A stretch of DNA of 13,462 nucleotides from positions 1 through 13,462 of the forward strand of contig JAIOTG010000044.1 in the NCBI GenBank assembly GCA_021106995.1. Reading direction: 5' to 3'. Numbering within the stretch: position 1 is the first letter of the stretch; the number at the start of each line of letters is the position of its first letter. Source of the stretch: a bacterium. Its GTDB lineage: Bacteria; Patescibacteriota; Patescibacteriia; Patescibacteriales; JAGXOH01. Positions 1,861-6,564 of the stretch are shown here, piece by piece. The translations under genes were made by a program, and so were the position numbers. The notes beneath the pieces are model-generated. The model was not told the origin of the DNA. It saw only the letters and a list, made by a program, of their open reading frames with translations, and searched no databases.

Positions 1861-2859
1861 ATGTATTTATATCGAACAATTTTAAAAAAAAGCGCACAGA
1901 TTATTTGGAAATTTAAACATTTATGGTTTTTTGGTTTTTTTGCTGCTTTTTTAGGTAGTTTTTTAGAATTTGAAATTATTTTTAACAGAATGGGCCCTGA
2001 TTTTGGTCACAGATTTTTGAACAATATTGGTAGTATTAAGAGTGCAGGAATCTTTAGTAAAAGTTTTTTGTTTAATTTTGGAAATTTGTTTAAGAATGAT
2101 CCAATTTCAATGATTATACTTTTGACCATCACCTTAATTGTATTAGTTTTGCTTGGTTTTTTGATTTGGTTATCCATGGTATCTCAAGGAGGCTTAGTAA
2201 ATAATACAGCTAATATTGTTAATAATAAGGGTGAAACAAATATTCAGGTGGGGGTTGAATCGGGTGTGAAGAATTTTTGGAAAATATTTGGTATAAATTT
2301 GGTAGTTAAATTTTTTGTTTATTTTATACTTTTGATTTTAAGTTTGTTGATATTTTTCACATCTTATAGCTCCAGTCTTCTTTCTAGTATGTTTTTGGTT
2401 AATGCGTTGTTATTTATTGTTTTCATTCCTTTGGCCCTAATTTTAGCTTTTATTGCAAAATATGCTATTTGTTATGCTGTTATAGAGGGAGATAGTTTTA
2501 TTCTTTCTATTAAGAAAGCTTTTAACTTGTTTATAAGAAATTGGCTCGTGAGTATCGAAATGGCTTTTATATTGTTTTTTCTTTCATTTATAGTCGGTTT
2601 GGTTATATTAATTGGATTGACCTTGGCGTTTATTCCAATATTACTTCTCTTTAATTTAGCAGTTTATTTTTCCTGGATTATGTTAAGTTTTTGGATTTTT
2701 ATTGTTGGAATAATTATACTGGCTGTCTTGATGGCTTTGGCCGGATCAGCCTTCAGTGCTTTTCGTATTACCGCTTGGACAGAATTTTTTATAAGATTAA
2801 ATTCTTCTAAGGGTAGTGTTAGTAAATTAGCTAGACTGGTGGCTAAAGTAAAAAAATAA
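1861..2859 (+). CDS. Polytopic integral membrane protein, function unknown
   Basis: This 332-residue protein has no motif that identifies it. It opens with a basic amphipathic stretch (about 1-20), then hydrophobic segments near 21-41, 82-107, 145-167, 177-207, 229-265 (long enough for two passes) and 268-300, and ends in a basic cytoplasmic-type tail. A polar region at ~108-144 (GGLVNNTANIVNNKGE) separates the second and third segments. The pattern recalls bacterial membrane proteins related to the DUF975 or GDPD membrane-domain type, but that is only an impression. There is no signal peptide cleavage site and no Cys/His cluster suggesting an enzyme. The ATG follows an inverted repeat with no Shine-Dalgarno. 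It ends 12 bp before the double PilB ATPase gene, so the two are probably co-transcribed; a link to the pilus machinery is possible but not shown. Confidence 0.75.
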   Translation: MYLYRTILKKSAQIIWKFKHLWFFGFFAAFLGSFLEFEIIFNRMGPDFGHRFLNNIGSIKSAGIFSKSFLFNFGNLFKNDPISMIILLTITLIVLVLLGFLIWLSMVSQGGLVNNTANIVNNKGETNIQVGVESGVKNFWKIFGINLVVKFFVYFILLILSLLIFFTSYSSSLLSSMFLVNALLFIVFIPLALILAFIAKYAICYAVIEGDSFILSIKKAFNLFIRNWLVSIEMAFILFFLSFIVGLVILIGLTLAFIPILLLFNLAVYFSWIMLSFWIFIVGIIILAVLMALAGSAFSAFRITAWTEFFIRLNSSKGSVSKLARLVAKVKK

Positions 2860-2871
2860 AAATAATAAACT

Positions 2872-5800
2872 ATGTCAGACGACAAAGGTTTTGGATCGCT
2901 TGAGAATTTGATTAGAGCTTCTCATGGAGAAGAACTTGAGGAAGAGACTATTCAGGGTCAATTCCAAAAAAAACAAAAAGAGCTTGAATTAAAACAAAAA
3001 GAAGAAAAGGCTAAGGCAGTGGCTAGTTCTTTAGGTGTTCCTTATATAAATCTTTTTGGATTTCCTTTGAGTCCAGAGGCTTTAACTTTAATAAACGAAC
3101 AAGAAGCTAATGATTTAAGAGTGGTTTGTTTTTTTTATGATGGAATGAGAATTCGTATAGCTACTACTAATCCTGAAAGGGAAGAAATAACAGAATTAGC
3201 TAAAATTTTAAGTAAAAAACATCACTCTGAAGTGAAGGTGTATTTTGTTTCTGAATATAGTTTGGAATATGCACTTAAAGTTTACAATAGTCTTCCTAGA
3301 ATAAAACATGTTGTTAGAGGGGTTAAAATAGAAGAAAAAGACATAAAGAGATTTGAAAATGAAATTACTGATTATAAGCATTTAAATGAGAAAATTAACG
3401 ATGTAAATATTTCGGATGTGGTGGTTTTAATATTGGCAACGGCCATTAAAACTAATTCTAGCGATGTTCATATTGAGGCTGAAGAAGAGGGAATTAAGGT
3501 TCGTCTTAGAATAGACGGGGTTTTACAGGATGCCGCCATTGTAAACAAGGGTAAGTGGCACAAAATAGTATCGAGAATGAAATTACTTGCTGGTGTAAAA
3601 ATTAATATAACTGATAAACCTCAAGATGGAAGATATACTATATTTTTAGATAATGAAAAAATAGAAGTAAGATCATCTTTTTTACCAACTAACTATGGTG
3701 AGAGTGTGGTAATGAGAATTTTAAAATCAGAATCTATAAGTTTACCTTTTGAAAAACTAGGATTAATGCCTCAGGCTCAGGAAATTTTAAAAAGAGAAAT
3801 GAAAAAACCTAACGGACTTCTTTTAACCACTGGTCCGACTGGTTCTGGAAAGACAACAACTCTTTATGCGGTTTTAAAAAAATTAAACAGTCCAGAGACA
3901 AAAATTGTTACTTTGGAAAATCCGATTGAGTACCATCTTGAGGGTGTTAATCAGAGTCAGGTTGATAAAAGCAAAGGCTATACTTTCGCTAATGGTCTTA
4001 GGTCTATATTAAGACAAGATCCAGATATCGTGATGGTGGGGGAAATAAGGGATTTAGAAACAGCCGATATTGCTATTCAGGCTAGTTTGACTGGTCATTT
4101 AGTTTTATCTACTCTTCATACCAATGATTCTTCTGGAGTTATTCCTCGTCTAGTAGATATGGGAGTAAAACCATATTTTTTAACACCTTCCATAAATGCT
4201 ATAATCGGACAGAGATTAATAAGAAAACTTTGTGAACACTGTAGAGAAAAAGATGAATTAGAAGAAGATCGGAAGGAGAAAGTTGAAAAAATATTAGCGG
4301 TAATATCGCCTAAATCAGAAGTAGAGGTTTCTAAAAAGTTAGATACATTTTATAGGGTCGGTAAAGGATGTGAATATTGTAATGGAATTGGTTATAAAGG
4401 AAGAATTGGAATATATGAGATATTTACTATGTCTGATAATATTAAAGCTTTAGCTTCTGAAAACGCTCCTGCTTTTAGAATATTACAACAAGCAATAGAG
4501 AATGGAATGGTAACGATGTTACAAGACGGAATTTTAAAAGCTTTAGAAGGCACAACGAGTGTAGATGAAGTATTTAGAGTTATTGGGAAGACTGATTATG
4601 TAGATACTTTATATGACATAGTAATATCAAAGACTTTTGGTAGAGGAATAAAGTTAACCGAAGGAGAAATAGCTCAGGGATGGGAGATGGCTATGAATAT
4701 AAACGATGTTGATAAAGACAGGATAGAAAATATACCAAATAAAGAAATGGTTAATATTGTTTTAGCTACTGCTATAAAAAGTAATGCTGGTGATATTCAT
4801 ATTGAACCAGAGGCAGATGGAGTAAAAATAAGATTGAGAATAGATGGTATTCTCCATGATTTTTTAAAATTAACTAAAGATCATTATTTATCCTCTTTGT
4901 CCAGAATTAAAATATTGGCTGGATTTCCAACTAATATTAAAAAGGCAACTTGGGACGGTAGATTTAGTATTTTCTTAAAAGAAGAAAAGATGGATTGTCG
5001 TGTTTCTATTATATCAGGTGGATATGGAGAGACTGTGGTTATTAGGTTGTTAGCCAATCAAGCGGCTTCTTTAGATATGAAAGAATTAGGAATGAGACCT
5101 TATGCATTAGGGATTATAAATAAAGCTTTAGAAAAAACTAGAGGAATTATTATAAATACTGGTCCAACTGGTTCTGGTAAGACTACCACTCTTTATAGTA
5201 TGTTAAATAAATTAAATAAACCTGATATTAAAATTATAACGGTTGAAGACCCTATTGAATACCATTTAGAGGGAGTTATGCAGACTCAGATTGATGAAGA
5301 GCAAGAATACACTTTTTCCAAGGCTATGAAGTCTCTGCTTAGACAAAATCCAAATATAATGATGATAGGAGAAATTAGAGATGAAGATACAGCTAAAATT
5401 TCTATAGAGGCTAGTCAAACCGGTCATTTAGTATTATCAACTGTTCATGCTAATAGTGCAGCAGGGGCTCTTTATAGATTTGCGGGCCTTGGTGTGGAAA
5501 AAAGCATGTTGGCCGCTTCTTTAAATTGTAGCATCGGTCAAAGATTGGTTAGAAGAATTTGCCCTAATTGTAAAAAAGAGGTGGATATTTCTGAGGAAAA
5601 GCTTGCGGAGGTAAAGCAGAATTTAAATAACCTTAACCTTGATTTGGGAGTTGAGCTTCCGGAAAAACTAAAATTTTATAAGGGGCAGGGCTGTTTGGAG
5701 TGTAATAATTTGGGCTATAAAGGAAGGATAGGTCTTTATGAGGTTTTAGATATAAGCCCTACCATTCAGAAATTAATTCAAAAAAATGGAATGACTACTT

Positions 5801-5916
5801 ATGATATAGAGCAGGCCGCTGTAGAGGAGGGGGCAGTTTTAATGATCCAAGATGGGATTATAAAAGCCCTGGAAGGCTTAACTACTATCGAGGAAGTATT
5901 TAGAGTGGTTAAGTAG
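2872..5916 (+). CDS. pilB: Tandem-fused type IV pilus assembly ATPase (PilB/GspE x2)
   Basis: PilB/GspE ATPases are cytoplasmic hexamers that power pilin extension or type II secretion. This 1014-residue protein is about twice the usual 550-600. Residues ~22-48 look coiled-coil, ~49-150 resemble the GspE/MshE N-terminal domain, and two full N2 plus ATPase units follow. Unit 1 has Walker A GPTGSGKTTT (321-330), Asp box ENPIE (349-353), Walker B with DIVMVGEIRD (385-394), His box (409-416) and a zinc site C454/C457/C500/C503. Unit 2 has the same order: Walker A 764-773, EDPIE 792-796, Walker B ending GEIRD (833-837), His box 852-859, C897/C900/C941/C944. Each unit ends in the same QDGI(L/I)KALEG...EVFRV sequence, so this is an intact duplication and not a broken copy. 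Unit 2 lacks the N1 domain. The frame is continuous. There is no Shine-Dalgarno; the gene begins 12 bp after the membrane protein gene. Confidence 0.93.
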   Translation: MSDDKGFGSLENLIRASHGEELEEETIQGQFQKKQKELELKQKEEKAKAVASSLGVPYINLFGFPLSPEALTLINEQEANDLRVVCFFYDGMRIRIATTNPEREEITELAKILSKKHHSEVKVYFVSEYSLEYALKVYNSLPRIKHVVRGVKIEEKDIKRFENEITDYKHLNEKINDVNISDVVVLILATAIKTNSSDVHIEAEEEGIKVRLRIDGVLQDAAIVNKGKWHKIVSRMKLLAGVKINITDKPQDGRYTIFLDNEKIEVRSSFLPTNYGESVVMRILKSESISLPFEKLGLMPQAQEILKREMKKPNGLLLTTGPTGSGKTTTLYAVLKKLNSPETKIVTLENPIEYHLEGVNQSQVDKSKGYTFANGLRSILRQDPDIVMVGEIRDLETADIAIQASLTGHLVLSTLHTNDSSGVIPRLVDMGVKPYFLTPSINAIIGQRLIRKLCEHCREKDELEEDRKEKVEKILAVISPKSEVEVSKKLDTFYRVGKGCEYCNGIGYKGRIGIYEIFTMSDNIKALASENAPAFRILQQAIENGMVTMLQDGILKALEGTTSVDEVFRVIGKTDYVDTLYDIVISKTFGRGIKLTEGEIAQGWEMAMNINDVDKDRIENIPNKEMVNIVLATAIKSNAGDIHIEPEADGVKIRLRIDGILHDFLKLTKDHYLSSLSRIKILAGFPTNIKKATWDGRFSIFLKEEKMDCRVSIISGGYGETVVIRLLANQAASLDMKELGMRPYALGIINKALEKTRGIIINTGPTGSGKTTTLYSMLNKLNKPDIKIITVEDPIEYHLEGVMQTQIDEEQEYTFSKAMKSLLRQNPNIMMIGEIRDEDTAKISIEASQTGHLVLSTVHANSAAGALYRFAGLGVEKSMLAASLNCSIGQRLVRRICPNCKKEVDISEEKLAEVKQNLNNLNLDLGVELPEKLKFYKGQGCLECNNLGYKGRIGLYEVLDISPTIQKLIQKNGMTTYDIEQAAVEEGAVLMIQDGIIKALEGLTTIEEVFRVVK

Positions 5917-5994: not shown

Positions 5995-6564
5995 ATGATT
6001 AATAAAAATTTTATCAAGAAGCTTAAAAAGGACTATATTGCTTCAAATAGCGAAAGAAGGCAAATTATAAGTCTTTCTAATATAATATTACACGATTCTA
6101 AGCGAATTATTTTTACTCTTCACAGAGGAGATATGAAGAAGGCAGAAGATATGTTTGTAAGTGTAGAAAATATTTTAAAAAAACTCGAGAAAAAATTTAG
6201 TTTTAAAAGAATTTCTGATGAGGGTTCATATAGGGCGGGCGTAGAAGAATATGTCGAAGCTAAGATGTTTTATTTTTTAATGATGGGTAAAAAAATTGAT
6301 TCTATAAAAGGTATAAAAATAAATTATGATAGTTATATTGGAGGGATTTGTGATTGTTTAGGTGAGTTGGTGCGTTTAGCTGTAAATAAGGCCTCAAATA
6401 GAGAGTTGGAAGATGTTGTTAAATTAAAAAATACAGTTAATAATGTTATGGCTGAATTGGTTGAGTTTGATATGACGGGTTATCTCCGCACTAAATATGA
6501 TCAAGCTAGAGGTCATCTTCGTAAGATCGAACAAATTAATTATGATGTTAATATTAGAAAATAA
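5995..6564 (+). CDS. Translin/TRAX-family (COG2178-type) nucleic-acid-binding protein
   Basis: This 189-residue, mainly helical protein fits the translin family in length and in the order of its landmarks. These are an N-terminal basic helix with RRQIISLS (21-28), the LHRGD element (42-46), EEYVEAK (84-90), GGICDCLGELVR (116-127) and a C-terminal FDMTGYLRTK...R segment ending in a basic tail. In TRAX, the catalytic partner in the eukaryotic C3PO RNase, the QEYVEA and GxxDLTGELMR segments carry the acidic residues of the active site; the matching residues here are E85, E88 and D120, so nuclease activity is plausible. Family members bind RNA or ssDNA as ring-like octamers. The family is typical of eukaryotes and archaea, so a bacterial copy is notable. 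No export signal or membrane segment is seen. The start has no Shine-Dalgarno and abuts a palindrome. The identification comes from motif recall, not from an alignment search. Confidence 0.72.
   Translation: MINKNFIKKLKKDYIASNSERRQIISLSNIILHDSKRIIFTLHRGDMKKAEDMFVSVENILKKLEKKFSFKRISDEGSYRAGVEEYVEAKMFYFLMMGKKIDSIKGIKINYDSYIGGICDCLGELVRLAVNKASNRELEDVVKLKNTVNNVMAELVEFDMTGYLRTKYDQARGHLRKIEQINYDVNIRK

Follow-up and report, generated by a model that had tools for sequence, protein, structure and literature searches.

How does a motor ring of the PilB/GspE kind accommodate a chain that carries two complete ATPase units instead of one? The question is raised by a gene of a patescibacterium (assembly GCA_021106995.1, contig JAIOTG010000044.1), in which one open frame encodes 1,014 residues with two such units in tandem. 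We analysed the whole 13,462-nucleotide contig, here termed the window, together with related proteins and genomes. We find that the fused form is a real, old, conserved and widespread variant within the known PilB/GspE motor family. On balance, we think it somewhat probable that this old two-unit motor is assembled from three chains into one ring of alternating units, and that it is an orphan motor of the extension type.

Domain and structure matches confirmed that the single frame holds two complete N2-plus-ATPase units of the PilB/GspE kind, as the original prediction from the sequence had proposed. Walker A, Asp box, Walker B, His box and a four-cysteine zinc site are present in each unit and conserved across 119 aligned proteins. 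An N1 (MshEN) domain precedes N2 in unit 1 only, again as predicted, and unit 2 retains a remnant of N1 in the linker between the units. Solved PilB structures (5tsg, 5tsh and 6olj) share with the tandem chain the N1, N2 and C-terminal (CTD) domains, Walker A and B motifs, Asp and His boxes, arginine fingers and zinc site, and match each unit at 42–44% identity over roughly 380 residues; GspE has the same domain plan. According to the available part of the PilB study (PMC5424180), the ATP site is assembled between packing units, from the N2 of one chain and the CTD of the next, and named roles are assigned to nine residues (R271, R286, T327, E357, E395, T411, H413, H420 and R455). We mapped these positions by hand through the 6olj alignments, assuming that the chain number equals the residue number plus 20, and found the same residue type at all nine in both unit 1 (R267, R282, T323, E353, E391, T407, H409, H416 and R451) and unit 2 (R710, R725, T766, E796, E834, T850, H852, H859 and R894). 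The mapped residues are invariant in both units of the 119 proteins except for T323 of unit 1, which, like the rest of Walker A residues 323–325 in that unit, is nearly invariant; the Walker lysine, the Asp-box, Walker B and His-box residues and both N2 arginine fingers are invariant in both units. Each unit thus carries the features of the PilT-like (PilB/PilT/VirB11) family, namely Walker A, an atypical Walker B with a catalytic Glu, Asp box, His box and arginine fingers. Unit 1 and unit 2 also each have the four-cysteine CTD zinc site, a feature of the PilB/GspE branch whose motif is present in the solved PilB (PMC5424180, available part). With the known catalytic residues kept, both units look catalytically competent.

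The two-unit form is common among relatives of the window protein. From at least 8,000 matches we took the best 120, which share 60–92% identity with the query except for one protein (P0077) at 43%; P0077, used as a second query, led to a second large tandem clade, the named members of which are mostly Moranbacteria. Across both match lists, the window's protein included, 239 of 240 proteins have two units. P0077 itself, the sole three-unit chain among the 240, has 1,460 residues, three PilB-like units and two linkers of the same kind. When the linker served as the query, full-length matches above 100 bits were found in 8 genomes of a phylum-wide sample of 379: four from the window's order, counting the window's genome itself, three distant ones and G232. 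The tandem gene of G232 (L067) is nearly identical to that of G203, although the genome belongs to another family, and its contig is probably misbinned. A scan of named genomes, which is not a census, listed 80 loci, two of them with two units in one frame; at four loci from other phyla (L140, L144, L163 and L175), two full-length PilB-type genes adjoin in separate frames. The original prediction had allowed that the fused length might prove to be the common form of a described family. The form is indeed common, but the literature that we searched, which mostly did not extend to subscription papers, contained no description of a tandem PilB/T2SSE protein, nor of such a form in Patescibacteria or the Candidate Phyla Radiation (CPR).

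The linker bears on how the chain was made. Its profile (residues 574–622) matches residues 131–179 of the same proteins (P = 2.7e-6), whereas five other stretches used as controls gave P values of 0.013–0.1, and the offset between the two aligned stretches, 443 residues, equals the spacing between the two Walker lysines. In a structure model, the linker is predicted to fold as a helix (575–588), a short strand and two more helices, and helices are predicted at the end of N1 at residues 128–140, 155–160 and 170–174. Judged from these sequences, the linker is the last N1 helix and the N1–N2 connector of the second copy; the profile match at this offset shows that the second copy once had the full N1–N2–CTD arrangement and that its N1 was almost wholly deleted.

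In a 75-row tree, which leaves out the tandem proteins L066 and L102, a single clade (100/99) holds the tandem units and their single-unit homologues and excludes the other sampled PilBs of the same bacteria and of other phyla. The tandem protein departs from PilB in having two units per chain, a second N1 eroded to a linker, a branch of its own and a window with no recognised PilC or PilM gene. All 21 second units in the tree, including units 2 and 3 of P0077, form one clade (97/97), and the second unit therefore probably arose once. Unit 1 of the window's order groups with the single forms of its class (98/94); that of the Moran-type clade has a different position, closer to the unit 2 clade. 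The two units are separate lineages. An earlier, quicker tree of 99 rows placed the unit 2s of the long-branched L066 and L102 apart from the other unit 2s. Topology tests rejected both the grouping of every unit 1 in a single clade (p = 1.3e-4) and an independent local duplication inside the window's order (p = 0.0145). A basal duplication in the subfamily, followed by loss of unit 2 from the single forms, was not rejected (p = 0.125), so that the tree is compatible with such a loss as well as with transfer of the tandem gene; because the groups were chosen after the tree had been seen, these p values are lenient.

Within the window's order, the tandem and single forms exclude one another. 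We surveyed 60 genomes of the order using the N1 region of the subfamily as the query, where members scored at least 161 bits and the next-best proteins at most 65 bits, and counted frames of at least 851 residues as tandem. A member was found in 56 genomes, 24 with the tandem form, 32 with the single form and none with both; G404 has two single forms, and G390, G399, G421 and G428 have no member. A search with the linker picked out the identical 24 genomes, and three families (f164, f167 and f2) each contain both forms. The surroundings are also shared: at 26 loci of the order, a membrane-protein gene lies upstream of the ATPase in 22 (12 of 15 tandem and 10 of 11 single, with small open reading frames intervening in three), and a translin gene lies downstream, not always adjacent, in 21. 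The translin gene was seen only within the order, with no match in the roughly 1,500 flanking bases of L014–L035. In this order, then, the tandem gene occupies the locus that its single-unit relative holds in other genomes, and the mutual exclusion is consistent with three tandem chains taking over, like for like, from six single ones. In poorly resolved trees of three flanking genes, tandem loci are intermixed with single ones (4 to 6 changes).

In a sample of the class, the subfamily was present in 137 of 144 genomes, once in each. All six genomes of the window's order had the tandem form, and 1 of 131 outside it (G516) had a tandem-length frame. Both units of the G516 protein fall inside the tandem clades, whereas the genes of its family relatives (G330, G489 and G539) are single and group with the other single forms, a pattern that transfer of the entire tandem gene would produce. 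The contig carrying it has a tetranucleotide profile closest to six other G516 contigs (r = 0.90), yet its G+C content is 42% against their 31%, and it may be misbinned.

The upstream membrane protein extends beyond the order, preceding the single-unit ATPase at 22 of 22 loci in the rest of the class, these being the best-scoring loci and not a random draw. DUF7544 (PF24400) matches 33 of its 118 homologues; the window's own protein is unmatched and has only a weak match to a choline transporter family. A profile comparison gave a probability of 0.2% that it is a disguised PilC, and we rejected that identity. From gene order, the membrane protein is likely to be the partner of the ATPase. Weighing against an orphan motor that depends on this partner, the membrane neighbour is missing beside the tandem genes at L066, L095, L100–L103 and L184, and also beside that of G516.

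The tandem gene lies outside any pilus operon. No pilC, pilM, pilN or pilT neighbour and no other secretion gene was recognised in the window, and no PilC domain was found near the tandem gene in the eight tandem genomes searched. In G430, G425, G338, G356 and G203 the sole PilC gene stands beside one ordinary PilB gene, and the tandem gene is an additional one; in each of G413 and G418 there are three PilC genes, every one beside an ordinary PilB gene. As an extra motor beside a main one, the tandem protein resembles PilU, an accessory retraction ATPase of the PilT branch that forms a homohexamer, from which it differs in having two units per chain.

How might such chains be arranged? Enzymes of the PilB/GspE branch are homohexamers of one-unit chains. 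With ATP sites built between adjacent units, one tandem chain can fill two consecutive positions and three chains can close a hexameric ring, which makes a three-chain pseudo-hexamer, the arrangement put forward in the original prediction, plausible. The six units would then follow one another in the order 1-2-1-2-1-2, and the ring would do the work of six single chains with three N1 domains instead of six. Opposite positions would always pair unit 1 with unit 2, so that in a two-fold cycle one unit of each kind would fire at a time, and in a three-fold state the unit 1s as a group would oppose the unit 2s. This orphan, extension-type motor would work with the upstream membrane protein, or be lent to the PilC of the cell, and would not be the main pilus PilB. 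We are doubtful of a stricter version, an obligately alternating motor whose ring is three-fold and whose unit 1 and unit 2 sites are held in fixed opposite phases, unlike the two-fold cycle proposed for PilB; in such a motor the unit 1 interfaces would all be closed while the unit 2 interfaces were all open. A structure model of the tandem chain reached a pTM of 0.49. Covariation was used to compare alternating with stacked rings. Among 254 chains, the top pairs by mutual information are concentrated on a few shared columns, probably reflecting subclade effects; in a two-sided test, the cross-unit count exceeded the null maximum slightly at the lowest threshold (63 against 60) and did not exceed it at any higher threshold.

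Six chains could instead build a stacked double ring, with a ring of unit 1s atop a ring of unit 2s and twelve ATPase sites. There are precedents in KaiC and p97, which have two P-loop ATPase domains per chain and form stacked rings, although both lie outside the PilT-like family and the structural match of KaiC to the tandem chain is weak (rmsd near 18). We consider this architecture possible but would not expect it: the single form, which occupies the same locus, would make only one ring for that same partner, and doubling the height would be a larger change than halving the number of chains, an argument that is itself weak. The only other repeat number seen, the three of P0077, also divides six.

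A division of labour between the units, in which one is catalytic and the other regulatory or structural, is compatible with either ring order. Unit 2 would then bind ATP, hardly hydrolyse it and set the geometry of the ring. This explanation, which strikes us as unlikely though worth entertaining, draws on a position ahead of Walker B where the RQD motif of unit 1 (D383) reads RQN in unit 2 (N826). In unit 1, Asp stands here at a frequency of 1.00 in each of the two tandem clades (136 and 123 rows), as it does in 32 single homologues, 9 other PilBs and 3 PilTs, and Asn stands in unit 2 at 1.00 of 136 and 0.99 of 123 rows; S197/G640 and G375/A818 likewise differ between the units in both clades. 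Against it, the residues of the Walker, Asp-box and His-box motifs and both arginine fingers are as invariant in unit 2 as in unit 1, and the related VirB11/TadA-type ATPases are active without the RQD Asp.

The original prediction had further suggested that two motor functions, for example those of two PilB-like paralogues, might be combined in this chain in a reduced genome; a gene-saving union of an extension and a retraction motor would be another such case. The genome is small (799,289 bases in an 84%-complete assembly), and the whole chain exceeds the cut-off of the PilT family TIGR01420 (330 against 319 bits), though only by adding the 172 bits of unit 1 to the 160 of unit 2. The same summing carries the chain past the other NCBIfam cut-offs, which neither unit passes alone: for GspE (TIGR02533, 630.25 bits), the units score 481 and 427 and the chain 897, and for type IVa PilB (TIGR02538, 675.65 bits), they score 479 and 407 and the chain 875. 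Missing the TIGR02538 cut-off does not set the tandem units apart, since the single-unit homologue L085 (489 bits) and the three other PilBs of the genome (510–575 bits) also fall below it. Unit 2 is not a fused PilT, as each unit matches GspE/PilB far better than PilT and has the zinc site that PilTs, chains of about 350 residues, lack; real PilTs in seven tandem genomes score 392–431 bits with TIGR01420. Gene counts point the same way. Besides the tandem gene, the genome holds three further PilB-type ATPases, two PilC genes and a PilT-family gene that contig C32 breaks off after 73 residues (L070, 3876–4095; TIGR01420, 30 bits, E = 2.5e-7), and all seven other tandem genomes searched have a PilT above the NCBIfam cut-off. 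The single form, moreover, manages without unit 2 in 32 of the 60 genomes of the order. With separate motors present and both units of GspE/PilB type, a merger is very improbable and this part of the prediction falls. In the available parts of the literature, a Saccharibacterium is described as having two pilus systems with separate pilB genes (PMC12206443), CPR PilB and PilT are placed in one protein family (PMC6744442), and both are listed for one genus (PMC11809585). Finally, two neighbouring genes joined by a missed stop, a misassembly or an annotation error, a case that the original prediction had raised against itself, can be set aside, because, across many contigs, all but one of the 240 related proteins show exactly two units in a single frame, and the linker between them is conserved.

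Table 1. Features of the tandem ATPase gene and its immediate neighbours, in window coordinates
Feature	Position	Strand	Details
Tandem PilB/GspE-type ATPase	2872..5916	+	1,014 aa; N1-N2-CTD-linker-N2-CTD; single open frame
N1 (MshEN) domain	3031..3276	+	Residues 54–135
Unit 1 (N2 + ATPase domain)	3406..4578	+	Residues 179–569
Unit 1 Walker A	3832..3858	+	Residues 321–329
Unit 1 Asp383, RQD motif ahead of Walker B (Asn in unit 2)	4018..4020	+	
Unit 1 four-Cys zinc site (C454, C457, C500, C503)	4231..4380	+	Invariant in 119 aligned proteins
Linker, residues 574–622	4591..4737	+	Remnant of the second copy (last N1 helix and N1–N2 connector); conserved
Unit 2 (N2 + ATPase domain)	4738..5910	+	Residues 623–1013
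Unit 2 Walker A	5161..5187	+	Residues 764–772
Unit 2 Asn826, fixed Asp-to-Asn change ahead of Walker B	5347..5349	+	
Unit 2 four-Cys zinc site (C897, C900, C941, C944)	5560..5703	+	Invariant in 119 aligned proteins
Polytopic membrane protein, DUF7544-like	1861..2859	+	332 aa; 12 bases upstream of the ATPase; proposed membrane partner
Translin-family protein, next gene downstream of the ATPase	5995..6564	+	PF01997, E = 1.8e-20

Other neighbourhoods were seen during the survey. Three genomes of the order (loci L071, L072 and L073) encode a PilB-like ATPase that lacks N1 and is about 400 residues long; next to it are genes for a tRNA synthetase, LemA and an M48 peptidase, the genes being named by Pfam for L071 and by similarity for L072 and L073. 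The distant tandem loci L102, L103 and L066 lie near a gene resembling that of DNA polymerase I; a DHH-family protein is encoded just upstream at L102 and L103, and a short TsaE-like gene is found at L103 and L066, the polymerase-like and TsaE-like genes being named by eye.

The firing order of PilB-type rings, with opposite pairs, alternation and one-after-another firing as the alternatives, is argued from two-fold and three-fold homohexamer structures (PMC5424180, available part). In the tandem motor, two genetically separable units would fix which units are neighbours and which are opposite, so that single-site mutants become feasible without mixed assemblies. If the alternating three-chain ring is true, the one- and two-headed forms that swap at one locus are a natural experiment in tying six motor subunits into three. 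For annotation, the PilB and GspE names assigned to such chains by score are inflated through the counting of two units. For the biology of these bacteria, the single and tandem forms together add a further PilB-type motor to 137 of the 144 sampled genomes of the class, with a membrane-protein neighbour conserved at all 22 of the single-unit loci examined outside the order.
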